Below, piece after piece: positions 48,441 to 64,000 of a DNA stretch of 64,000 nucleotides. Position numbers and translations under genes: made by a program. This DNA is from Citricoccus sp. SGAir0253 (GTDB lineage: Bacteria; Actinomycetota; Actinomycetes; Actinomycetales; Micrococcaceae): assembly GCF_005877055.1 (NCBI RefSeq), contig NZ_CP039424.1, positions 1,054,001 through 1,118,000 on the forward strand, read 5' to 3'. The notes under the pieces are model-generated. The model saw only the letters and a program-made list of their open reading frames with translations, did no database searches and had not been told where the DNA came from. Position 1 is the stretch's first letter; each line of letters opens with the position of its first letter.

Positions 48441-51400
48441 ATGTCACGGTTCAGCTTCCTGGAATGGCCGGTCATCCGGCAGTTCCGCACGGACGACTCG
48501 TCCGGCCGAAGCTCTGCCGTGGTCTCCGGCCGGACCCGGTCCCTCACCCCCCGCACCGCCACCGCGGACCGCGCGGTGCAGAGCGTCTGCCCGTACTGCG
48601 CGGTGGGCTGCGGACAGAAGGTGTTCGTCTCGGACGAGCGGGTCGTCCAGATCGAGGGGGACCCGGACTCGCCGATCTCCCGCGGCCGGCTGTGCCCCAA
48701 GGGCTCGGCGAGCGAGCAGCTCGTCAACGCCTCCAACCGCCAGACGAAGGTCCTCTACCGCGCGCCGCGGGCCACCGAGTGGCAGGAGATGGACCTGGAG
48801 ACCGCCACCGAGATGGTGGTGGACCGCTTCCTGGAGTCCCGCCGCAACGGCTGGCAGGACCTGGACGAGCAGGGCCGCCGGCTGGCCCGCACCATGGGGA
48901 TCGCCTCCCTGGGCGGCGCCACGCTGGACAACGAGGAGAACTACCTCATCAAGAAGTTGTTCACCGCGGCCGGCGCCATCCAGATCGAGAACCAGGCCCG
49001 TATTTGACACTCCGCCACGGTTCCCGGTCTGGGGACCTCCTTCGGGCGCGGCGGCGCCACCCAATCGCTGCAGGACATGGCCAACGCCGACTGCATCGTC
49101 ATCCAGGGCTCCAACATGGCCGAGGCGCACCCCGTGGGCTTCCAGTGGGTGACGGAGGCCAAGGCGCGCGGTGCCAAGGTCTTCCACGTGGACCCGCGCT
49201 TCTCCCGGACCTCCGCGGTGGCGGACAAGCACGTCCCCATCCGGGCGGGCTCGGACATCGTGCTGCTCGGCGCGCTCATCAACCACGTGCTCACCCACGA
49301 GAAGTGGTTCAAGGAGTACGTGGTGGCCTACACGAACGCGGCCACGATCGTCGGGGAGGACTTCCGGGACACCGAGGACCTGGACGGGCTGTTCTCCGGC
49401 TTCGATGAGGAGACCGGCGGCTACGACATGTCCTCGTGGGCCTACGAACCGGAACCGGGATCGCCGGCCGCCGGGGCCGGCGTCGGGACCCCGGGGACCG
49501 GTGAGGCCACCGAGGGCGCCTCCGGCGCCGTCGCGGGGTCCATGGGCGGTGACGCCGTCCAGGAGGACGCCGCCGAGGCCTCGACCGAGGCCGCGGGGCA
49601 CCAGTACGGCTCCGGCGGGCCGGACATCGAGACCCACCGGCCGCGCCGCGACGAGACCCTGCAGCACCCGCGCTCGGTGTTCCAGATCCTCAAGCGGCAC
49701 TACTCGCGCTACACCCCCGAGATGGTCCGCGAGGCGTGCGGGATCTCCGAGGAGGACTTCGAGGAGCTGGCGCACGCCATCACGCAGAACTCCGGCCGGG
49801 AGCGCACCACGTGCTTCGCCTACGCCGTCGGCTGGACGCAGCACACGGTGGGCGCCCAGTACATCCGCACCGCCACGATCCTGCAGCTCCTGCTGGGCAA
49901 CATGGGCCGTCCCGGCGGCGGCATCATGGCCCTGCGCGGGCACGCCTCCATCCAGGGCTGCACGGACATCCCGACCCTGTTCAACCTGCTGCCGGGCTAC
50001 CTGCCGATGCCCACCGTGGAGCGCCAGGACCTGGCCACCTACCTGGAGGCGATCGCCTCCAAGCAGCAGAAGGGCTACTGGGCGGAGGCCGACGCGTACA
50101 CGGTGAGCCTGCTCAAGGCCTGGTGGGGGGACGCCGCCCACGCCGACAACGACTACGCGTACGACTACCTGCCGCGGCTCACCGGGCCGCACGGGACCTA
50201 CCAGACGGTCGAGGGCATGATCGCCGGGGACGTGGAGGGCTACTTCATCCTCGGCCAGAACCCCGCGGTCGGCTCCGCCAACGGGCGCATGCAGCGCATG
50301 GGCATGTCCCACCTGAAGTGGCTCGTGGTCCGCGACTTCCAGCTCATCGAGTCCGCCACGTGGTGGAAGGACGGCCCGGAGATCGAGACCGGGGAGCTGC
50401 GCACCGAGGACATCGAGACCGAGGTGTTCTTCTTCCCCGCGGCCAACCACGTGGAGAAGGCCGGCACCTTCACCCAGACCCAGCGGCTCGTCCAGTGGCG
50501 CCACCAGGCCGTGGCACCGCCGGGCGACGCCCAGTCCGAGTTGCAGTTCTTCCACGAGCTCGGCAAGCGGATCCGGGCCCGGCTCGCCGACTCCACCGAC
50601 CCGCGGGACCGGCCCCTGCTGGACCTGACCTGGGATTACCCGGAGGACGAGCACGGGGAGCCGGACGGCGAGGTGATCCTGCAGGAGATCAACGGCCGCT
50701 TCGTCTCCGGTGAGCGGGCCGGGGAGCTGCTGTCCAGCTACACCCAGATGCGCGCGGACGGCTCCACGGCCGGCGGCTGCTGGATCTACACGGGCGTGTA
50801 CGCCGACGGCGTCAACCACGCCGCGATCCGCACCCCCGGGGGCGGGGACGGCCCGCAGGACGAGGAGTGGGGCTGGGCCTGGCCGGCCAACCGGCGCATC
50901 CTGTACAACCGAGCCTCGGCGGATCCCGAGGGCCGGCCGTGGTCCGAGCGCAAGCGGCTCGTGTGGTGGGACGAGGAGCAGGGCCGGTGGGTCGGCAACG
51001 ACGTGCCGGACTTCCCCGTGGACCGCGCCCCCGGCAGCACCCCGGACCCGTCCCTGGGCGGCGCCGCCGCGATCGCGGGGGACGACCCGTTCATCATGCA
51101 GGCCGACGGCAAGGGCTGGCTGTTCGCGCCCAAGGGCATGGTGGACGGCCCGCTGCCGACCCACTACGAGCCGCAGGAATCGCCCGTGCGCAACGCGCTG
51201 TACGCGCAGCAGAACAACCCCACGCGCGTCACCCTGCCGCGCAAGGACAACCTCTCGGCGCCCGAGGCCGGCACGCCCGGCTCGGACGTGTACCCGTTCA
51301 TGTTCACCACCTACCGGCTGACCGAGCACCACACGGCCGGCGGGATGAGCCGGTGGCTGCCCTACCTCGCCGAGCTGCAGCCGGAGATGTTCTGCGAGAT

Positions 51401-54426: not shown

Positions 54427-55058
54427 CCGTCGTCTGCCCGCCGGGCGCCGGAGGCGTGGGCGGGAGGCTCGGAGCTGTCCGATGCCGGACGGGCGTGCCG
54501 AAGGACAGTAGGGGTCCGCGAGGGAGGGGCCGGTACTCCGAGCCCCGACGCTCCGGTGGCCTGACGGAGTGGCGGCACCGCGATCGCCGGCGGCCCTCGG
54601 ACCAGACCGCCCGCACTGACCTGGCCCGGCGGTGACCCGGAACGTCAGCTGCCCTCCGCACCGTGCGGAGCCGAGCAGTGAGTATGGACACCCGGAAGTC
54701 ACGTACCCCGGTGAGTAAGGGCCCCGAGGATCGGGCCGACCAGTCGAGTAGTCCCCCCCGGAACTTGGGGTAGCGATTACTCGTGAACCGGCGCGGTAGC
54801 CGTTCGTACAGTACAGGCATCGCCTCAGGTCAAGTCCTCAAATCCCCCTCCCGGAGCTCCCCGGCGCTCCCGATCACACCACGGACGCACACCGTCCCGC
54901 ATCGATCCCCCTACCGGCGGCACCCGCAGCAGAGCGGGGCCGTCCCACCCGCCCTGGGCGTGGGCCTCCCCGTGGGAGACACCACGCGGCCAGGCCCGGA
55001 CGTCCTTCCACCACCCCGGCTGGACGGACCCTCCGACCACCGTCCCAAGGAGTTCCCC
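54427..55058 (+). promoter_or_regulatory. Long upstream region of the glycan locus
   Basis: About 630 bp without a convincing gene. It contains GAGTA elements spaced at 33 bp (54680, 54713, 54746) and an inverted TACTC at 54778, an AT-richer stretch at 54760-54850 with TACAGT (54806-54811) as a possible -10, then Pro/Arg-rich non-coding-looking sequence up to the start of the GtrA gene. A long 5' leader or upstream regulatory region for the surface-glycan genes is likely. No known riboswitch was recognised. Confidence 0.4.
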
Positions 55059-55748
55059 GTGACCTTCATCGCCACTCCCGGCCCGGCCCGGCCCGGTGCC
55101 CCGTCCCGGGCCGCGGGTACGGAGACCACCCGGGTCGACCCGTCGGCGCACGTGGACGAGGCGGTCGCCGGCACGGGGGAGACGGCACTCGGCCTCCTGC
55201 CGCCCTCCGCGCCGGCCCGGCCGGCCAGCGGTGGCTCCCTCCCCCGGCCGACTCCCCGTGGCGTGGAAACCACCCCCCGTGGCCGCCTCCTCGGTCGTCG
55301 GCTCACCGCGGTGCTCTTCGGTCGGATGACCCGGTTCGCTGCCGTCGGGGCCATCGGAGCCGTGCTCAACCTGGGAATCATGGCCGCGCTCCTCGCGGTC
55401 GGGGCGCACTACCTGGTGGCTGCCGTCGTGGCCACGGAGCTCACCATCCTCGGCAATTTCCTGCTCCATGAGCGCCTCGTCTTCCACGACCTGAGAACCG
55501 GGCGCCCGTTCTGGCAGCGGATCCTCGGGAGCCTGGGCTTCAACAACCTCGAGACCATCGTCCGGATGCCGGTGCTGGTCCTGCTCGTGGACCTGCTGCT
55601 CGTCGACAGCGTCCTCGCCCAGGGGATCACGCTGGCGCTCGCATTCCTGGCCCGGTTCATCTTCACCTCGCGCGTCATCTACCGAATCCGCCCCGCTGCG
55701 GGCCGCCCCCGGCTCGTGATGCCCCGTCCTGAGGAGCCCCTCCCATGA
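55059..55748 (+). CDS. GtrA-family membrane protein
   Basis: 229 aa. A polar N-terminus of ~85 residues is followed by the four-helix GtrA fold: MTRFAAVGAIGAVLNLGIMA, VAAVVATELTILGNFLLHER (conserved E/N of the family), RLVFHDLRTGRPFWQRIL, then two more helices ending FIFTSRVIYRI. GtrA proteins move polyprenyl-linked sugars or act with glycosyltransferases in surface polysaccharides. GTG with AAGGAG 6 nt before it decides the start. The stop overlaps the next start (ATGA). First gene of the co-directional glycan locus. Confidence 0.87.
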   Translation: MTFIATPGPARPGAPSRAAGTETTRVDPSAHVDEAVAGTGETALGLLPPSAPARPASGGSLPRPTPRGVETTPRGRLLGRRLTAVLFGRMTRFAAVGAIGAVLNLGIMAALLAVGAHYLVAAVVATELTILGNFLLHERLVFHDLRTGRPFWQRILGSLGFNNLETIVRMPVLVLLVDLLLVDSVLAQGITLALAFLARFIFTSRVIYRIRPAAGRPRLVMPRPEEPLP

Positions 55749-55885
55749 ACGTCACCCTTGGTGCACCCCCTGATCAGCAGCCCGCCGATCCGCGAGAGCC
55801 GGCCCATGACCGGCAAGAGGTGCAGAGGGTGGGCTGCCCTCGCTGTTCCGATGCCCGAGATGCCGGAGAGGAGGAAGCGTCATGA
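55745..55885 (+). CDS. 46-aa ORF coupled on both sides by ATGA overlaps
   Basis: ATG at 55745 overlaps the gtrA stop and its own stop overlaps the glycosyltransferase start (both ATGA). GAGGAG lies 8 nt upstream. The peptide is charged and Pro/Asp/Arg-rich with one CPRC pair and no membrane helix; no family is recognised. The double coupling is the main reason to call it a gene. It may instead only pass ribosomes from gtrA to the glycosyltransferase. Confidence 0.42.
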   Translation: MNVTLGAPPDQQPADPREPAHDRQEVQRVGCPRCSDARDAGEEEAS

Positions 55886-57027
55886 GCCTGGCCATGGACA
55901 CCCCCGCAGGACCGCCGCCACCCGCCGCGGTGGAACCGGTCGGCCTGGACCTCTCCGGCCTCGACCGGCCCGGATCCCGCATCGTGTCGCTCATCCCGGC
56001 GCACAACGAGGAGGACGGCATCGTCAAGACGGTCCGCAGCCAGTTCGCCCAGTCGATCCAGCCCGCGCTGGTCATCGTCATGGCGGACAACTGCACGGAC
56101 GATACCGTGCGCCTGGCCCGTGAGGCCGGGGCGCAGGTGGTGGAGACGGTGGACAACCGGGCGAAGAAGGCGGGCGCGCTGAACCAGGGGCTCGCCATGG
56201 TGATGCCGCTGCTCGACGACGACGACTACATCCTCGCCCAGGACGCCGACGGCGAGCTCGGGACGGACTTCATCAAGAACGCGCTGTGGGCCTACGAGGT
56301 CAAGCCGAACCTGGGTGGAGTCTCCGGTTGCATCGTCGCCCGGACGCCGACCAACTTCATCGAGCGGGCCCAGGCCATCGAGTACGCCCGCGGCACCCGC
56401 CTCATGGGCCGGCAGGGGGGGAAGGTGCATGTCCTGTCCGGCGCCGCCGCACTGTTCCCGGTGCGCGTCTTCAGGGCCATCGCGGAGGCACGCGGCACCA
56501 CGCTGCCCGGCGCCCCCGGAACGGTGTACATGGAGGACTCGCTCACCGAGGACTACGAGCTCACCCTGGCGATCCGGCACCTGGGGTTCGACTGCACCAG
56601 CACCAAGCGGTGTCCGGTGGTCACCGACATCATGCCGGACATCGAGATGCTGCAGGTCCAGCGCCTGCGCTGGTACCGGGGGGCCATGGAGTCGCTGTGG
56701 CTCTACGGGTGGAACCGGATCACACGGAGCACGTGGGGCGGCGTCGCGTTCACCTTCTTCTCGTCGCTCCTGTTCCCGCTCGCGCTGCTGGCGCTGGTCC
56801 TGAGCTGGCTGCTCTGGGACATCGGACCGAACCCCCTCTACTGGTTCCTCCTGCCCATCTTCATGGCCGAGAACATCGTGGTCGCGATGCGCATCAAGGA
56901 CAGGGCGTCCCTGCGGACGGCCATCTTCTTCGTGCCCCTGTGGCTCTACGACAACGCCATGTTCATCGTGTACTGGCGCGCCCTGTTCGGAGCCGTGCGC
57001 CGCGAGGCGCGCGTCTGGGTCACCTGA
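55882..57027 (+). CDS. Processive glycosyltransferase family 2 (membrane polysaccharide synthase)
   Basis: 381 aa. GT2 marks: PAHNEEDGIVKTVRSQ, VIVMADNCTDDT (first Asp), AQDADGELG (DxD, UDP-sugar/metal), DSLTEDYELTL (ED catalytic base) and QRLRWYRGAM (Q(Q/R)xRW, the processive signature). Two to three C-terminal helices (FTFFSSLLFPLALLALVL, FLLPIFMAENIVVA, IFFVPLWLYDNAMFIVY) form the membrane part. Shorter than Streptomyces CslA, like IcaA/PgaC or NodC-type enzymes. It probably extends a beta-linked sugar polymer across the membrane. AGGAGG precedes the ATG, which overlaps the 46-aa ORF. Confidence 0.92.
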   Translation: MSLAMDTPAGPPPPAAVEPVGLDLSGLDRPGSRIVSLIPAHNEEDGIVKTVRSQFAQSIQPALVIVMADNCTDDTVRLAREAGAQVVETVDNRAKKAGALNQGLAMVMPLLDDDDYILAQDADGELGTDFIKNALWAYEVKPNLGGVSGCIVARTPTNFIERAQAIEYARGTRLMGRQGGKVHVLSGAAALFPVRVFRAIAEARGTTLPGAPGTVYMEDSLTEDYELTLAIRHLGFDCTSTKRCPVVTDIMPDIEMLQVQRLRWYRGAMESLWLYGWNRITRSTWGGVAFTFFSSLLFPLALLALVLSWLLWDIGPNPLYWFLLPIFMAENIVVAMRIKDRASLRTAIFFVPLWLYDNAMFIVYWRALFGAVRREARVWVT

Positions 57028-57044
57028 GAGGAGGGAAAACAGCA

Positions 57045-57200
57045 ATGTACGGAACAAGCGGAATCGCCGCCACGACCGGTGCGTCGGCCACCGCGCTCGC
57101 CGCCACCGGACTGGACGTCTTCTGGATCGTCGTCTCCAGCGTGGCGTTCATCATGGCCGGCGTCGTGTTGACGCGGCTGCGGCCGAAGGAGGAGTTCTGA
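57045..57200 (+). CDS. 51-aa LAATG sorting-signal membrane microprotein
   Basis: 51 aa. The C-terminal 34 residues form a typical cell-wall sorting signal: LAATG at residues 18-22 (LAXTG is the class E sortase motif of high-GC Gram-positives), a hydrophobic helix (LDVFWIVVSSVAFIMAGVVL) and a charged tail RLRPKEEF. Only 17 residues precede the motif, with no signal peptide. AGGAGG lies ~10 nt before the ATG. Placed between the synthase and the deacetylase, it may be a tiny synthase partner (like the small D subunits of poly-GlcNAc synthases) or a sortase-attached anchor. Function unknown. Confidence 0.75.
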   Translation: MYGTSGIAATTGASATALAATGLDVFWIVVSSVAFIMAGVVLTRLRPKEEF

Positions 57201-57250
57201 GCAGCGTGGCGGCCTCGCGCGAGGCCGCCACGCACTCGGACAGGAGGACC

Positions 57251-58021
57251 ATGCGCATCACCCCGATCATGACCGCAACCACAGCCGTCCTGGCCCTGGC
57301 CCTGGCCGGGTGCGCCACGCCCGACCCCCCGGCCCCCACTCCCATCACGCGCGAGGCGCGTGGGGTCAAGGCGGCCGACATCGGCCACCTGCCGGACCTG
57401 ACGCCGCCGGAACGCTGCACCGGTCACGTGGCACTCACCTTCGACGACGGACCCACGAAGCTGACGCCGGAGATCCTGGCCGTCCTGGACCACTACGACG
57501 TGCCCGCGACCTTCTTCAACGTGGGTCTCCAGGAGAAGGCCCTGCCGCGCCTCGTCGAGCGAGAGCTCGCGGCCGGCCACCAGGTCGGCAACCACACGAT
57601 GACGCACCCTGACCTGTTGTCCCTGGACGTCGACGAGGCCCTGGAGGACGTGGACGCGGCCTCGGCGACGCACCGCGACCTGACCGACGAGCACGTGACG
57701 CTGTTCCGCCCGCCGTACGGGAACTCCGACGCGGCGATCCGCGCCGCGGCCGAGGACCGTGGCCTGACCGAGGTCCTGTGGACCGTCGACTCCAAGGACT
57801 ACGAGGCCATCTCGGTCGACGAGGTGGTGGAGAACTCCCGGGGAATGACCGACGGCGGCATTCTCCTCATGCACGACGGCAAGCCGCTGACCGTCGAGGC
57901 ACTGCCCCGGGTCATCGAGCACTACTACGACGAGGGCCTGTGCTTCGGCCGGGTCACTCCAGGCGACACCGAACTCCCCTCCAACGTGGGCCTCACCCAC
58001 CGGGCCCGAGCCAGCGACTAG
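57251..58021 (+). CDS. Polysaccharide deacetylase lipoprotein (NodB domain)
   Basis: 256 aa. Lipoprotein signal ending LALALAGC, so it is tethered outside the membrane. The NodB motifs are complete: TFDDGP (catalytic base and metal Asp), HTMTHPDL (metal His residues), FRPPYGNSD, LWTVDSKDY and GGILLMHDG (catalytic His). CE4 enzymes remove N-acetyl groups from GlcNAc polymers. Its presence beside a processive GT2 suggests an N-acetylhexosamine polymer. AGGAGG-type Shine-Dalgarno before the ATG at 57251. Confidence 0.95.
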   Translation: MRITPIMTATTAVLALALAGCATPDPPAPTPITREARGVKAADIGHLPDLTPPERCTGHVALTFDDGPTKLTPEILAVLDHYDVPATFFNVGLQEKALPRLVERELAAGHQVGNHTMTHPDLLSLDVDEALEDVDAASATHRDLTDEHVTLFRPPYGNSDAAIRAAAEDRGLTEVLWTVDSKDYEAISVDEVVENSRGMTDGGILLMHDGKPLTVEALPRVIEHYYDEGLCFGRVTPGDTELPSNVGLTHRARASD

Positions 58022-58032
58022 GAAGCAGCATC

Positions 58033-59499
58033 ATGAGCACCGCAACCCTCACCCGATCCGAGGCCTCCGCCGCCACTCGCCCGGCGCGACGGCCGATGAG
58101 CCGGCCCACGAGACAGTGGCTACTCCTGGGAGCGGTCGCGGTCTACGTCGTCGTCCTGGCCGTCCGCCTGCGCAACACGGCCTTCATCGACGAGGCCCTG
58201 TACATCAACGCCGGGAACGCCTACCTCGACCACTGGTTCGGCGGCCGCCCCCTGGGTGATGCAGGTGCCTTCTTCTCGGGACTGCCCGTCCTCTATCCCG
58301 TCCTCGCGGCCCTCATCGACTCGGTCGGTGGACTGTACCTCGTCCGCGCGTTCAGCCTGGCGTGCGTCCTGGCGACCGCCCTGCTGCTGTTCGGCACGGC
58401 GCGCCGGCTCTGGGGACGCCGAGCAGGCCTGCTGGCGGCGGCCACCTTCCTGCTGTCCGGGCCGGTGGTCTTCATCGGGTGGCTGGGGACGTTCGACGCG
58501 CTCGTGGTGGCCCTGCTCGCCCTCGGCCTGTGGCTCGGCCTGGCCCGCTCGGGCATCCCCTCGGCGGTCCTGCTCGGCATCGTGCTGACCCTGGCGACCC
58601 TGACCAAGTACACGGCCGGGCTCTTCGTGCCCGTGGTCCTGGCCGCCACCGTCGTCGCGGGGGCGATGGGTCTCCGACGGGCGGGGGTCGCCGCGGCCGT
58701 GGCAGTCGGTTCCCTGGCGGTGGTCTGGACGCAGGGCGGTGCGGACGTGGCGCGGGATGTCGCGTTCACGACCACCGGCCGCCAGGCCCTGTCACCCGTG
58801 GGCGCCGGCGAGCTGTTCGGCCTGCTGATCGACCACCTGGCCTTCCTCATCCTGCTCGCCGTCGTGGCCCTCGTGCTGATGTGGCGGGCGGGGGGGTGGC
58901 GACTGCGGGTGCTGGGCCTGGGCCTCGTCACCGCGGCGGCGGCGCTGCCGGTAGGCCAGATGATCCTCGGTGAGGCCGTCTCGTTCGAAAAGCACCTGGC
59001 CTACTCCGTCCTGCTGCTCGCGCTGCCCATCGGATGGGGCCTGGCCCACGTCTCACGACTCCCGCTCATGGTCACCCCCGTGGTGCTGGCCGTGATGATC
59101 ATGGCCCTCTTCCCGCTGGTGCGAGCAGACGCGATGTACCGCTGGCCCAACGTCGCCAGCGTGTTGGCCGCGATCGAGTACGACCCCCAGCCCGGCCTGT
59201 ACATCAGTTCGGCGACCGACGCGTTGGACTACCACACCCGCGACCTGCCGGGCATCGCGTGGGAGACGACGTTCGAGCTGTACTTCGAGGGTGAGGAGGG
59301 GATCCAGGCGGCCGTCGCCAACGAGCGGTACGAACTCGTCATCCTGCGCACCGCCAGCGTGGGCAACGCCGAACAGGACTCGCTGCAGGCGACCTTCCTC
59401 GCGGCCCTGGAGCAGAACCCCGCCTACGGCTTGGCCTTCGAGCCGTTCCCCGCGTCGACCACCCCCGGCGACGAATGGCTCATCTACTCCCACCGGTGA
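58033..59499 (+). CDS. GT39-like multispan glycosyltransferase
   Basis: 488 aa with ~11 helices. The first extracytoplasmic loop holds RLRNTAFIDEALYINAGNAY, where the D-E pair fits the catalytic acidic motif of the PMT/ArnT (GT39/GT-C) fold that uses polyprenyl-phosphate sugars. Helices follow (VRAFSLACVLATALLLFG, GLLAAATFLLSGPVVFIGW, LGIVLTLATLTKYTAGLF), then a C-terminal soluble domain of ~110 residues. It may decorate the polymer or an acceptor from a lipid-linked sugar, and GtrA could supply that donor. AGGAAG precedes the ATG. Confidence 0.82.
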   Translation: MSTATLTRSEASAATRPARRPMSRPTRQWLLLGAVAVYVVVLAVRLRNTAFIDEALYINAGNAYLDHWFGGRPLGDAGAFFSGLPVLYPVLAALIDSVGGLYLVRAFSLACVLATALLLFGTARRLWGRRAGLLAAATFLLSGPVVFIGWLGTFDALVVALLALGLWLGLARSGIPSAVLLGIVLTLATLTKYTAGLFVPVVLAATVVAGAMGLRRAGVAAAVAVGSLAVVWTQGGADVARDVAFTTTGRQALSPVGAGELFGLLIDHLAFLILLAVVALVLMWRAGGWRLRVLGLGLVTAAAALPVGQMILGEAVSFEKHLAYSVLLLALPIGWGLAHVSRLPLMVTPVVLAVMIMALFPLVRADAMYRWPNVASVLAAIEYDPQPGLYISSATDALDYHTRDLPGIAWETTFELYFEGEEGIQAAVANERYELVILRTASVGNAEQDSLQATFLAALEQNPAYGLAFEPFPASTTPGDEWLIYSHR

Positions 59500-59545
59500 C
59501 CACTCCCGCCGGTGAATGCCAGAACGAAGAACGGAGAGAACCCGC

Positions 59546-62500
59546 ATGAAGAACAGGAAGCCCAGGAGGCTCCTCGCCCTGGCGGTGGCCATGAGCACCG
59601 TCAGCCTGGCCGGGGTGCCGGTGGCCACCGCCGCCCCCTGCACGTGGGGGACGCAGTGCGTCGCCGTGACCATGGCCTCCCCGACGAACGGGGCGACGCT
59701 GAGGGGCACGGTGGACCTCGAGGCCTCCGCGCGCGTGATCCAGGCGTCGCGGGGGGAGATCGTTAAGGTCGAGTGGTGGCTGTACCACCCCGACTTCACG
59801 CGGCAGGTGCCCGAGAACGAGGAGGGGAAGATCCTCCTCGACGAGGTCACCACCCCGTCCTCCGGCACCCCGCTGAACGGCACGTGGCGCGGCCAGTGGA
59901 CGGTGTCCAACCGGATGACCACCCGGGACGGGGCCTACCAGCTGTCCGGCACCCGGACATACACGCTGCCGAACACGAGCGGCTACAAGGTCGAGGCCCA
60001 CGTCCTGGACGAGGAATGGGTGCGGACGTGGGGCGGCCCGCCCGGCCGTAGCGATCCCGCGAACGTCACGATCGACTTCGGCGGCACGTCCTCGCCGACC
60101 CCGACGCCGACCCCGACGTCGACCTCCTCGCCGAGCCCGACGCCGACGTCGACCTCCTCGCCGAGCCCGACGCCGACGCTGGCGGCGGACCAGGTGCGGA
60201 TCGGCACGTCCACTCGCAAGCTCGACGGGACGAACGTCTACCGTGGTACCGGGATGCTGGTCCGGTACACCGGGACGCGCAGCCCGGCCAACCAGTACGG
60301 CATCGAGGTCGCGGTGGGCCCGGACAACCGGGTGACGGCGGTCTCGCGGTACCAGACGGGCATGGCGATCCCGAGCGGTGGCTACGTCCTGTCCGGACAC
60401 GACGACTCGGCGACCTGGCTGTCCACTCATGCCACGGTCGGTGCGGTCGTCCAGCTCGGCAGCGCCTCCTCGCCCAGCCCGACCCCGACGTCGACCTCCT
60501 CGCCGACCCCGACGCCGACCCCGACGTCGACCTCCTCGCCGACCCCGACGCCGACCCCGACGCCGACCTCCTCGCCGAGCCCGACGCCGACGTCGACCTC
60601 CTCGCCGAGCCCGACGCCGACGTCGACCTCCTCGCCGAGCCCGACGCCGACGCTGGCGGCGGACCAGGTGCGGATCGGCACGTCCACTCGCAAGCTCGAC
60701 GGGACGAACGTCTACCGTGGTACCGGGATGCTGGTCCGGTACACCGGGACGCGCAGCCCGGCCAACCAGTACGGCATCGAGGTCGCGGTGGGCCCGGACA
60801 ACCGGGTGACGGCGGTCTCGCGGTACCAGACGGGCATGGCGATCCCGAGCGGTGGCTACGTCCTGTCCGGACACGACGACTCGGCGACCTGGCTGTCCAC
60901 TCATGCCACGGTCGGTGCGGTCGTCCAGCTCGGCAGCGCCTCCTCGCCCAGCCCGACCCCGACGTCGACCTCCTCGCCGACCCCGACGCCGACCCCGACG
61001 TCGACCCCGACGCCGACCTCCTCGCCGGCGTCCAACGAGGTCCAGGTGGGGACCGCGAAGCATGTCCTGAACGGCACGAACGTGCCCCGCCTGGCGGACT
61101 ACCTGGTGCGGTACACCGGCACCAAGAGCCCGGCCAACATGTGGGGCACGGAGGTCGCGGTGGGCAGCAACGGGAAGATCCTCTCGGTCAGCACTCGCCA
61201 GGAGGGCATGGCGATCCCCAGCGGCGGGTACGTCCTGTCCGGGCATGGAGAGGCCGAGCGGTGGCTGGAGGCCAACGCCCCGGTCGGCGCGACGGTCATC
61301 CTGCCCGGTGGCACGGCACCGGTCCCCTCGCCGACCCCTACTCCCACCGCCACCTCCACCACCTCGCCCCCCACGACGGGCCTGGCGGCGACCGGCCGCT
61401 GGAGCATCTCGAACAGCCCGTTGCCCTCCCGGGCGATCCACTCCACGCTCTTGCGGGACGGGCGGGTCCTGCTGCTCGCGGGCTCCGGCAACAACACGGG
61501 GGACTTCGACGCCGGGACCTTCAAGAGCGCCGTGTGGAACCCCACGACGGGTGCCTACAAGGAGATCCCCGTTCCCTACGACATGTTCTGCGCCGGTCAC
61601 GTCACCCTGCCGGACGGCCGTGTCCTGATCAGCGGGGGCACGGAGGGGTATGCGGGCCACAACGGGGCCGTGGGCTACGTCGGCTCGAAGAAGTCCTACG
61701 TCTTCGATCCTGCCACGGACGCCTACTCGGCGGTCAACGACACCATCGAGGGGCACTGGTACCCGACGTTGACCAAGCTGGAGAACGGCAATGTCTGGTC
61801 GGTCGGGGGATACGACAACCGGGACGGGCGGGCCAAGGTCTCCACGGCCGTGGAGATGTACGACTTCGCGGCCGGTCGGTGGCTGCCCGCCTCGGGCACC
61901 GCACAGACCGGGCGGTACTGGGGCACCTACCCGCACTTCTTCCTCATGGCGAACGGGAACCTGTTCTTCACGGGCGGGTACACCTTCGGTGACTCCCCGT
62001 CGGCCACGGGCTCCGTCATCCACGACTGGCGCAACGGCACCAGTGGTGATGTCCCGGGGCTGCGGGACCGCCAACTCCGCGACCAGGCGGGCTCGGTCCT
62101 GCTGCCCCCGGCACAGAACCAGACCTTCATGATCGCCGGGGGCGGGTCGACCGACCGGGGAGGGGCGACGAACAGCGTCGACCTCATCAACCTGAACTCG
62201 GCCAACCCCGCGTGGACTCCCGGACCGGCACTGCCGGGCCCGGAAGGACGGATGTACCTCAACCTCACCACGTTGCCCGACCGGACCGTCCTGGCGTCCA
62301 ACGGCAGTACGGGACCGCGTGCGGGCAACGTGCTACGGGCGGCGACGTACAACCCGGCGACCAACGCCTGGACCACGGTGGCGGCGGATCCCGTGGGCCG
62401 CAACTACCACTCGTCCTCGCTGGTCCTCATGGACGGCCGGGTCGCGGTCTTCGGCTCGAACCCGGCCGACGGGTCCTTCGAGATGCGCGTCTCGATCTAC

Positions 62501-62812
62501 GAACCGGGCTACCTCTTCAAGGGCACCCGTCCCACGATCACGGCGGCTCCCGGCTCGACCGGCTACGGTGCGGGGTTCGACCTGGGCGTCACCGGGGACG
62601 TGGTCAGCGCCTCACTCACGGCCGTCGGCTCGGCCACCCACCAGACGGACACCAACGCCCGCCTCGTGGACCTGCCCATCACCGGTACCGGCACGACGCG
62701 TCGCGCGACGGTACCGTCCAATCCCGCACTGTTGCCGCCCGGGCCCTACATGCTCACGGTCCTCGACGCCAACGGTGTCCCCTCCGTCGCCAGGATGGTG
62801 AATGTCCGATGA
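59546..62812 (+). CDS. Secreted modular protein with copper-radical oxidase domain (galactose/glyoxal oxidase, GlxA-like)
   Basis: 1088 aa. Signal peptide (residues ~1-30), an Ig-like domain (~35-180), then three related modules (~213-305, 371-463, 495-590) joined by Pro/Thr/Ser linkers. The C-terminal half (~615-1088) is a kelch-type galactose oxidase-like domain: C682 (FCAGH) and Y739 (HWYPT) for the Cys-Tyr cross-link, Y954-H955 (NYHSS) and H1032 (ATHQTD) as copper ligands. It oxidises a primary alcohol or aldehyde of a glycan with O2 to H2O2. Modules 1 and 2 are nearly identical in DNA. GGAGA before the ATG. Confidence 0.9.
60113..60532 (+). repeat. 420-bp exact direct repeat, copy 1
   Basis: Identical base by base to 60587-61006, offset 474 bp (158 codons, in frame). 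It encodes a linker and the first of the two near-identical modules. Perfect identity in a coding region means very recent duplication or ongoing gene conversion. Confidence 0.92.
60587..61006 (+). repeat. 420-bp exact direct repeat, copy 2
   Basis: Second copy of the repeat at 60113-60532. Homologous recombination between the copies would delete one module and keep the frame, so module number may vary between strains, and short-read assemblies may collapse it. Confidence 0.92.
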
Positions 62813-63330
62813 GAGAACAGATCCTCGTGGTCGCCGCGGCTGGGCTGCTGCTGCTCGGCGGATGCGCCCTCGACCCGGCCTCGGGCGCGCCCGGCTCCGG
62901 CGCGCCGCCGGTGGCGGCCCCCGACTCCCGTCCGGACTCACAGGTCGCCGACGCACACGTGCCGATCGCGGGCGTGGCCCCGGAGGCCCACGCCGCCAAC
63001 AGGCCCGGACCGCAACAGGCCCAGGGCATCAGGATGGTGCCGGACCGGGGGAGGGGCCTGGATGCCGACGACGTGTCGGACACGGCGCTGGCCGGCGGCT
63101 GCGTGCCCGGCTACGGCACGGACGGGGAATGCCTGCCCCCGGTTCCGCCCCGGCTCGCGGCCGAGCACGCGGGGCACCGGGGAATGGACGGACCCGAGAT
63201 GGCGATGTTCTACAACTGCGCGGACGTCCGGGCCCTGGTCCCGGACGGCCTCGTCACGGAGGACGACCCGCTCGGCCTCGACTCGAACCGGGACGGGATC
63301 GCCTGCGGGAAGGGAGATGACAGCAGGTAG
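62809..63330 (+). CDS. Lipoprotein with Excalibur-like calcium-binding C-terminus
   Basis: 173 aa. Signal with lipobox LLGGC (Cys residue ~19), a Pro/Ala-rich linker and a C-terminal region [10 protein letters not shown] ... [18 protein letters not shown] that fits the Excalibur domain (NCxxA...DxxGDGxxC) but with changes in spacing. Excalibur domains bind calcium in surface proteins. The ATG overlaps the stop of the oxidase gene (ATGA), so translation is coupled and the two likely function together on the cell surface. Confidence 0.8.
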
Positions 63331-63372
63331 CCGGCAGGTGGGTCACGCGGAGGAGCGGCGGGAGGTCGGCAC

Positions 63373-64000
63373 ATGATCACCCGCCGCTCGTTCCTCGCCG
63401 CGGCCGTGCTTCCCGCGCTGGGGCTGGCCTCGGGCGCCGTCGACGGTGAGGAACCCCAGCGCTACACCGACGTTTCCCGGGAGCCGGTACCGGAGGGCTA
63501 TCCCCACGACCGGCCCCTGCCGACCCTCAGGAGTCCCGTCATGGCACCCCTTCCCCGGCGCGTGGTCGCCGGCTACTGGACCTACTGGGGATCCCCCACG
63601 CGGCTGAGGGACATCCCGGCCCAGTACAACACCGTCTTCCTCTTCCACGCGACACCCGTCGGAGGTGCGCCGGGCAGCACGGGGGCAGTGCAATGGAACA
63701 CGCCCGACGACGGGCGGGGGGCGGCGACCCATCTCCTGGCGGACCTCGCGGAGTTCCGCCGGACGCGCACGGCCATCCTCACCGTCGGGGGGGCCCGGGC
63801 GCACGTCGACCTCTCCACGCGCGCACGGGCCCAGGCCTTCCTGGACAGCGTGCTGCGGATCTACGGCGACCTCGGCGGCTTCGACGGCCTGGACTGGAAC
63901 ACCTACGAGGGCGACCAGCAGCCCAACACCGAGCAGATGATCTGGGTCTCCCGGGAGCTCAAGGCCCGCTTCGGACAGGACTTCGCCATCACCACCCCGC
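63373..64000 (+). CDS. Tat-exported GH18-like glycoside hydrolase, partial (3' end outside window)
   Basis: At least 209 residues, running off the window end. TRRSFLA with a hydrophobic stretch (AAAVLPALGLASG) is a twin-arginine signal. The GH18-type barrel begins with VVAGYWTYWGSPTR, and ILTVGGA and GGFDGLDWNTYEG correspond to strands 3-4. The canonical DGxDxDxE motif is altered: DGLD is kept but followed by WNTYE, so the catalytic Glu spacing is one residue longer. It may cut or bind a GlcNAc-type polymer made by this locus. GGGAGG precedes the ATG. Confidence 0.8.
   Translation, partial: MITRRSFLAAAVLPALGLASGAVDGEEPQRYTDVSREPVPEGYPHDRPLPTLRSPVMAPLPRRVVAGYWTYWGSPTRLRDIPAQYNTVFLFHATPVGGAPGSTGAVQWNTPDDGRGAATHLLADLAEFRRTRTAILTVGGARAHVDLSTRARAQAFLDSVLRIYGDLGGFDGLDWNTYEGDQQPNTEQMIWVSRELKARFGQDFAITTP

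Follow-up and report, generated by a model that had tools for sequence, protein, structure and literature searches.

A cluster of genes starting at position 55,059 of a 64,000-nucleotide stretch of Citricoccus sp. SGAir0253 DNA (hereafter the window; C1:1054001-1118000 of the 3.56-Mb genome G000) is real and forms one discrete unit, which on balance probably directs a synthase-dependent N-acetylhexosamine surface glycan of the Pga/Ica kind, with GlxA-type oxidation and lipid-sugar decoration. In + strand order, and as translated, the cluster encodes a GtrA-type protein, a small open reading frame (ORF; orf46), a GT2 glycosyltransferase, an LAxTG-bearing microprotein (orf51), a CE4 deacetylase, a GT-C glycosyltransferase, a GlxA-like copper radical oxidase, an Excalibur-type lipoprotein and a GH18-like protein. 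We observed this gene content, together with conserved motifs and partners and insertion of the whole as a single block.

Gene layout and insertion of the cluster

An insertion of 10,994 bp (window 54365 to ~65358, C1:1119358), flanked by a selenocysteine formate dehydrogenase operon and by selD, contains the unit. Upstream are the formate dehydrogenase genes (in-frame TGA for selenocysteine at 49005-49007; molybdopterin, FeS and NrfD-like subunits). Sequence beyond 64 kb, which an earlier note on this DNA had proposed to inspect, showed that the GH18-like gene, ending at ~65325, is the last of the unit and is followed by selD, tRNA-Sec, selA and, by eye, selB (L003 12359-16813). The genus sample comprised eight genomes, six of them with selD. 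The insertion site is empty in 5/5 other members having both flanks: the dehydrogenase adjoins selD, with no match to any cluster gene in between. The two flanks are 12 bp apart in G003 and 5 bp apart in G004 (blastn), and the remaining three members have ~1.5 kb of other sequence there. The GC content is 71.5% in the block and 78.5 and 77.9% in its flanks. Presence in one species and absence from five favours gain of the cassette by transfer over loss in five relatives. No integrase was found among the genes identified in the insertion, for which no dedicated integrase search was made, and PLSDB revealed no plasmid vehicle (oxidase relatives on 15 records, all <60% identity; GT2 relatives on one, 37%).

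The first gene of the cluster encodes a GtrA-type, flippase-like protein of 229 amino acids (aa; 55059..55748; PF04138, 8.8e-18), and the second is orf46, a small ORF with a CxRC motif (55745..55885). The GT2 synthase (381 aa, 55882..57027; GT2 domain, 8e-15) is directly followed by orf51 (51 aa, 57045..57200), a single-helix LAxTG microprotein missed in the earlier note. Next come the CE4 (NodB) deacetylase lipoprotein (256 aa, 57251..58021; PF01522, 1.4e-32; lipobox by eye), the PMT_2/GT39-like GT-C glycosyltransferase (488 aa, 58033..59499; PF13231 (PMT_2), 1.9e-7) and the oxidase (1088 aa, 59546..62812; E-set domain, 8.1e-21). The Excalibur-type lipoprotein (173 aa, 62809..63330) precedes the GH18-like secreted protein (650 aa), whose gene runs from 63373 to the window's end at 64000 and on past it. 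A domain scan thus confirmed the earlier calls of GtrA, GT2, NodB deacetylase, GT39-like and galactose-oxidase-like E-set proteins. A separate repeat-module protein, also called in that note, does not exist: three modules of ~90 aa with Pro/Thr/Ser linkers sit in the N-terminal half of the oxidase ORF (60194..61310, + strand, starting at 60194, 60668 and 61040). Two 300-nt stretches of this gene, 60101-60400 and 60575-60874, are 99% identical, which points to recent internal duplication of module and linker.

The genes named from 55059 are all on the + strand, both by reading and by translation, and the ATGA overlaps at GtrA/orf46 (55745), orf46/GT2 (55882) and oxidase/Excalibur (62809) are real. 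Ribosome-binding sites are there as well, purine-rich before the GtrA, orf46, GT2, orf51, deacetylase, oxidase and GH18 genes and weaker before the GT39-like (AGGAAG) and Excalibur genes.

Counterparts of the cluster and of its oxidase in relatives

A second copy is present in Arthrobacter ruber (L044), with gene order as in the window. Identities to the window are 39% for orf46, 88% for GT2, 84% for orf51, 63% for CE4, 71% for GT-C, 91% for the catalytic part of the oxidase (61-73% for its N-terminal parts), 74% for Excalibur and 68% for the GH18-like protein over residues 1-342. At its C-terminus the A. ruber GH18 protein has a LysM domain, whereas the second half of the window protein is weakly similar to a GH18 domain (25%, E 0.001).

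A core without the oxidase also exists. Loci L122-L124 (class D) carry GT2, GT-C, CE4 and GH18 genes together and have no oxidase match. Counterparts of orf46 with the CxRC motif precede the GT2 in A. ruber and in L124, and the same scan found none in L122 or L123. The window unit therefore equals a core of the D kind plus oxidase, Excalibur and GtrA. The earlier description of the locus as a mixture of GlxA-type and poly-GlcNAc-type sets holds, each core also occurring separately in relatives. In L122-L124 the GH18 protein ends in the repeat module of the oxidase. This module, common to the window oxidase and those GH18 proteins, links both to one polymer and provides the best sequence argument that the oxidase and the GH18-like protein may act on the same chain. 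The A. ruber cluster has a GAF-domain protein gene on its upstream side (L044 2899-3588), and a similar-looking gene was seen by eye near the L122 cluster.

Among solved structures the oxidase is closest to 4unm (2.6e-79), whose listing names a secreted protein and which we take to be GlxA of S. lividans. The copper ligands Cys/Tyr/Tyr/His/His (the Cys-Tyr pair, a second Tyr and two His), whose roles we assume from galactose oxidase and GlxA, are kept in 44/44 aligned rows, window included. The GlxA-type Trp is kept in 42/44 rows; the position is Ala in 5lxz and 5lqi, presumably GlxA variants.

Close relatives of the oxidase amount to 22 copies in 20 of 395 Micrococcaceae genomes (E<=1e-60). 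For the study of partners we used 28 oxidase loci, namely 19 of the 22 family copies and nine further loci from Micrococcaceae and Microbacteriaceae; because some of these loci are closely related, they do not give independent counts. Left out were duplicate records (L101, L103, L105, L107-L110, L116), the divergent L113-L115, the Arthrobacter loci L068-L070 and L079 (28-33% identity) and loci outside the two families. The absence of co-occurring genes in relatives had been set beforehand as grounds for rejecting the unit, and this condition does not hold. Near the oxidase we found Excalibur at 27 of the 28 loci, GT2 at 26, GT-C at 25, GtrA at 22 and CE4 at 2, besides the second core in 3 loci. 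At the sole locus lacking Excalibur the sequence stops 141 bp past the oxidase, and at three of the 28 it reaches no more than 3.3 kb beyond it. At L049, with 10 kb covered on each side, Excalibur is the only partner, and the divergent family copies L113-L115 have none of the partners.

Three arrangements were distinguished among the oxidase loci. Class A, the commonest, runs oxidase-Excalibur-GT2-GT-C-GtrA. Class B comprises the window and A. ruber. Class C (L098, L099) runs GtrA-oxidase-Excalibur-GT2-GT-C, after which come genes for a GH26-like protein and for a PIG-L de-N-acetylase (assigned by Pfam in L098 and by similar sequence in L099); L098 also has a GH6 gene, and the class C GT2 looks cellulose-synthase-like by eye (PF03552, 0.0013, below cut-off). 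The window GtrA is 61 and 68% identical to the GtrA proteins beside the two class C oxidases. In a midpoint-rooted maximum-likelihood tree of 44 rows (alignment rows with matches <380 columns, as in L062, left out), B groups with C as its sister (98/92), and A is separate (99/95). G000 has a class A operon of its own (L041), which resembles the window unit in the catalytic part of its oxidase (57-58%) and in having Excalibur, GT2, GT-C and GtrA genes. However, its GT2 and GT-C are unmatched to those of the window (tblastn), it has no CE4 or GH18 match, and the N-terminal part of its oxidase differs.

Two side observations concern these oxidase loci. Next to the class A oxidase operon of the sister species G003 (L037 9492-12111), the broken remains of a GT2 (fragments 64-74% identical to the window's) and a GtrA-like gene are interspersed with transposase-like genes; a decayed relative of the cassette may once have stood there. 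Actinocorallia has tandem arrays of three to four oxidase genes (L060, L061), with GT-C-like genes nearby in L060 and a mannose-6-phosphate isomerase gene in L061.

The separate occurrence of both cores in relatives, and the class A operon with its own oxidase in the same genome, would also fit two adjacent units, in which GT2, deacetylase, GT-C and GH18 make one glycan and the oxidase/Excalibur pair modifies what the class A operon makes. We consider this quite unlikely, given the single-block insertion, the same order in A. ruber, the ATGA coupling of oxidase and Excalibur, and the module common to the oxidase and GH18 proteins. Chance neighbourhood was rejected on the gene order of A. ruber, the oxidase-less core, the single-block insertion and the partner counts over 28 loci.

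A ~40-bp element in the leader of the cluster, AGTAGTCCCC..GGGTAG....TACTCGTGA (54747..54786, + strand), is a possible operator. It matches once in the window and in 0/100 shuffles. A. ruber has a similar element ahead of its cluster (L044 4715), and no other locus among those compared has the full pattern. A scan of the 500 bases before the GT2 in 41 loci gave scattered pieces of it, most of them in L157; this span is insensitive in that it misses the element itself, ~1.1 kb before the window GT2.

The GT2 synthase and its LAxTG microprotein

TED and QxxRW are marks of polymerising enzymes, and D, DxD, TED and QxxRW motifs are present in 44/44 aligned homologues of the GT2. The cellulose synthase model CelA is matched with 23.2 of 699.1 bits, and no PDB sequence matched at E<=0.01.

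The neighbouring orf51 contains LAATG, a single hydrophobic stretch and a basic tail (stretch and tail by eye). It matches NCBIfam LAXTG_small_WW (NF058583) at 2.8e-8 with 33.3 of the 65 bits required, a cut-off that no genome of 395 reaches. Direct reading of the DNA showed a small ORF after the GT2 in 38/38 short-form loci, with LAxTG kept in 38/38. Among the matches listed, an NF058583 match lies 3-141 nt downstream on the same strand in 36/38 GT2 homologues <440 aa and in 0/64 longer ones, the latter count being possibly too low, with weaker matches unplaced in many long-frame genomes. GT2 typing covered the 102 strongest of 122 homologues (the other 20 match at E 7.8e-49 or weaker); of the NF058583 matches listed (to ~E 1e-4), 48 were used, mostly from genomes with a GT2 homologue. 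In L122-L124 and in 2/3 long-form loci (L126 and L036; not L125) the place after the GT2 is taken by another small membrane protein.

orf51 shows no relation to PgaD or IcaD in the NCBIfam scan. The basic C-terminal end of its helix suggests an N-out orientation, which would place LAxTG outside. Class E sortases recognise LAXTG as their signal, according to an excerpt of PMC5148588. The substrate features of these enzymes (LAXTG, hydrophobic stretch, basic tail) are present in orf51, and the genome has two sortase-domain genes, of this or another sortase class. One of them is located at L041 15418-16365, ~2 kb from the genome's own class A oxidase gene.

The predicted glycan and competing readings

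In the pathway that we favour, the GT2, with orf51 as small membrane partner, would polymerise a UDP-sugar and pass the chain outward, and the lipoprotein CE4 would take off some of the acetyl groups. GtrA would flip a lipid-linked sugar and, together with GT-C, would decorate the chain on the outer face with side sugars taken from a polyprenyl-phosphate donor. The secreted GlxA-like oxidase, held on the polymer via its repeat modules and paired with Excalibur, would convert primary alcohols to aldehydes, releasing H2O2, and the GH18-like protein would bind or trim the chain. Polymer identity, step order and all enzymatic activities in this scheme are predictions from sequence. The oxidase may also be a structural partner, since Streptomyces GlxA complexes with the synthase CslA and is needed for full activity, according to an excerpt of PMC11022532.

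The nearest solved enzyme to CE4 is 2cc0 (6e-34), and TFDDGP, HTMTHP, RPPYG and MHDG motifs were seen by eye. The GH18 domain is weak in the part within the window (7.3e-4, below cut-off) and clear with a five-member profile (3ebv, 1.1e-18). An AlphaFold model of the GH18-like domain built from 2 sequences (mean pLDDT 38.6) was not used. Excalibur (PF05901) scores 0.078 with the window copy alone and 2.1e-5 at best in the family. The domain was found in 15/17 family members at E<=1 and, with a lipobox seen by eye, supports the earlier call of an Excalibur lipoprotein; an alignment of 17 shows four invariant Cys and a DxNxDG-type loop. A model of this protein (pLDDT 75.1, pTM 0.66) gave no Foldseek match in the PDB at E<=10, and no function was inferred.

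A number of findings weigh against the favoured pathway. The best NCBIfam match of the GT2, PgaC/IcaA (TIGR03937), gives 56.9 of the 422.3 bits required, CE4 reaches 129.5 of the 240 bits of the NodB family model, and the oxidase scores 403.5 bits against the 800-bit cut-off of the GlxA equivalog (NF052501), which makes it a relative of GlxA rather than GlxA itself. In a hydropathy scan of the GT2 just two segments, both C-terminal, passed the threshold, and none was N-terminal; orf51 adds one helix, and known processive synthases have more. A processive GT2, as called earlier, is thus a putative reading that the motifs favour and the few helices weaken. At 36 GT2/LAxTG loci (L127-L162; stretches of 12-19.5 kb each, searched at E<=1e-5) there is no oxidase, Excalibur, GT-C, GtrA, CE4 or GH18 match, so the pair can stand alone and does not depend on the other cluster genes; in G015 a CE4 relative (24% identity) lies ~7 kb from the GT2, mostly outside the stretch searched (L162). 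No GtrA match was found in 21 kb of the A. ruber locus (E<=0.01), and a domain scan of the cluster proteins found no polyprenyl-phosphate sugar synthase domain. With 26 of the 28 oxidase loci lacking a CE4 relative, the oxidase is not in general associated with the window's deacetylase. Finally, the usual GH18 catalytic motif is DxxDxDxE, whereas the family has DGxDxNxxE, invariant in 5/5 members, where Glu comes later by one residue. Aligned to 3ebv by profile, this shift is closed by a gap; in the single-sequence alignment it is not. The earlier call of a GH18-like hydrolase is thus upheld for the family and, as to cleavage, qualified by the altered motif.

Several of these points bear on a different reading. 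GtrABC systems perform bactoprenol-linked glucosylation by means of GtrA, a GT2 and a GT-C. In a set of this kind, the GT2 would load a single sugar on polyprenyl phosphate, GtrA would flip it and GT-C would transfer it to a glycan of the wall or to a protein. That wall glycan would then be modified by the oxidase, the deacetylase and the GH18-like protein, and no new polymer would be made. GtrA and GT-C are indeed present, and membrane helices are few in the GT2. Some class A operons have GtrA in fusion with a DPM1-type GT2 (L046 by Pfam; L100-L102, L104, L105 and L109 by full-length matches), so the lipid-sugar route belongs to the oxidase context. Yet TED and QxxRW are kept in all 44 GT2s, the closest named family is PgaC/IcaA, and the A. 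ruber cluster has no GtrA match. No GtrB of polyprenyl-phosphate transferase type was identified in the unit, whose only identified GT2 is of the QxxRW, polymerising type, and the unit differs further in its extra secreted modifying enzymes. We regard this reading as possible but doubtful.

CE4 and GH18-like families often act on chitin. Together with the nearest solved relatives of the GH18-like protein, which are chitinases, and with the module-bearing secreted oxidase, they could suggest a set for foraging, by which foreign polymers resembling chitin are degraded or oxidised. Such a role is very unlikely: the unit has two biosynthetic glycosyltransferases, no transporter or sugar catabolic gene was found among the genes identified in the insertion, and the GH18 motif is altered.

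A bolder proposal, which we think rather unlikely, is that a self-crosslinking wall glycan is formed, in which amines left by the deacetylase and aldehydes made by the oxidase would join as imines into a gel, and a class E sortase would cut the LAxTG microprotein and tie the synthase product or site to peptidoglycan. The unrelated PIG-L de-N-acetylase near the class C oxidases (L098, L099) fits the amine-plus-aldehyde logic. With no CE4 relative at the commoner class A loci, this logic would apply to classes B and C only.

PgaD/IcaD is a small membrane protein beside the synthase, and PgaB has two halves, CE4 and GH-like. With these can be compared the small membrane protein by the GT2, the CE4 and the GH-like protein of the window, where CE4 and GH18-like protein are separate genes and a copper oxidase is added. 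As an excerpt of PMC7112194 describes PgaABCD/IcaADBC, which makes poly-beta-1,6-GlcNAc, the likeness lies in CE4 and in PgaC/IcaA as nearest GT2 family; no PgaA- or IcaC-like gene was identified in the window unit. The same excerpted survey of synthase-dependent operons ties a GH domain joined to the poly-N-acetylglucosamine (PNAG) deacetylase to Gram-negative pga operons and reports dual deacetylase-hydrolase proteins in two Gram-positives, one being the actinobacterium Kitasatospora setae. Streptomyces MatAB is likewise an actinobacterial GT2 and CE4 pair for a PNAG-like polymer, but MatB fuses the two, and the excerpt of PMC5972031 mentions no oxidase, GT-C or GH18 for its locus. Streptomyces CslA-GlxA(-CslZ), in excerpts of PMC11022532 and PMC3543389, shares with the window a QxxRW GT2, a GlxA-type oxidase and a glycoside-hydrolase gene at the locus. 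The window unit differs in adding CE4, GT-C, GtrA, Excalibur and the LAxTG microprotein, in a GH18-like protein in place of the CslZ glucanase and in a GT2 of another family; its GT2 scores PgaC/IcaA best, and an adjacent BcsA-like CslA synthase is not in the unit. As far as these excerpts go, each of the three systems shares single traits with the unit and none has the whole set. The earlier analogy to GlxA and poly-GlcNAc systems is sound as relatedness, with no protein at curated cut-offs. Among the papers listed by searches of the open-access literature, which leaves most subscription papers outside, none concerns the cluster, the oxidase/Excalibur pair or LAXTG proteins beside GT2.

Collectively, the unit is well supported, and the chemistry of its polymer is proposed from sequence. 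Oxidases of GlxA type are not bound to a single cellulose synthase. Within Micrococcaceae and Microbacteriaceae they move, together with an uncharacterised Excalibur protein, between GT2 glycan loci of at least three kinds; this opens their role in bacterial glycans to comparative tests. The GT2/LAxTG-microprotein pair, found at 38 loci, is a candidate for a minimal synthase and may connect sortases with polysaccharides.

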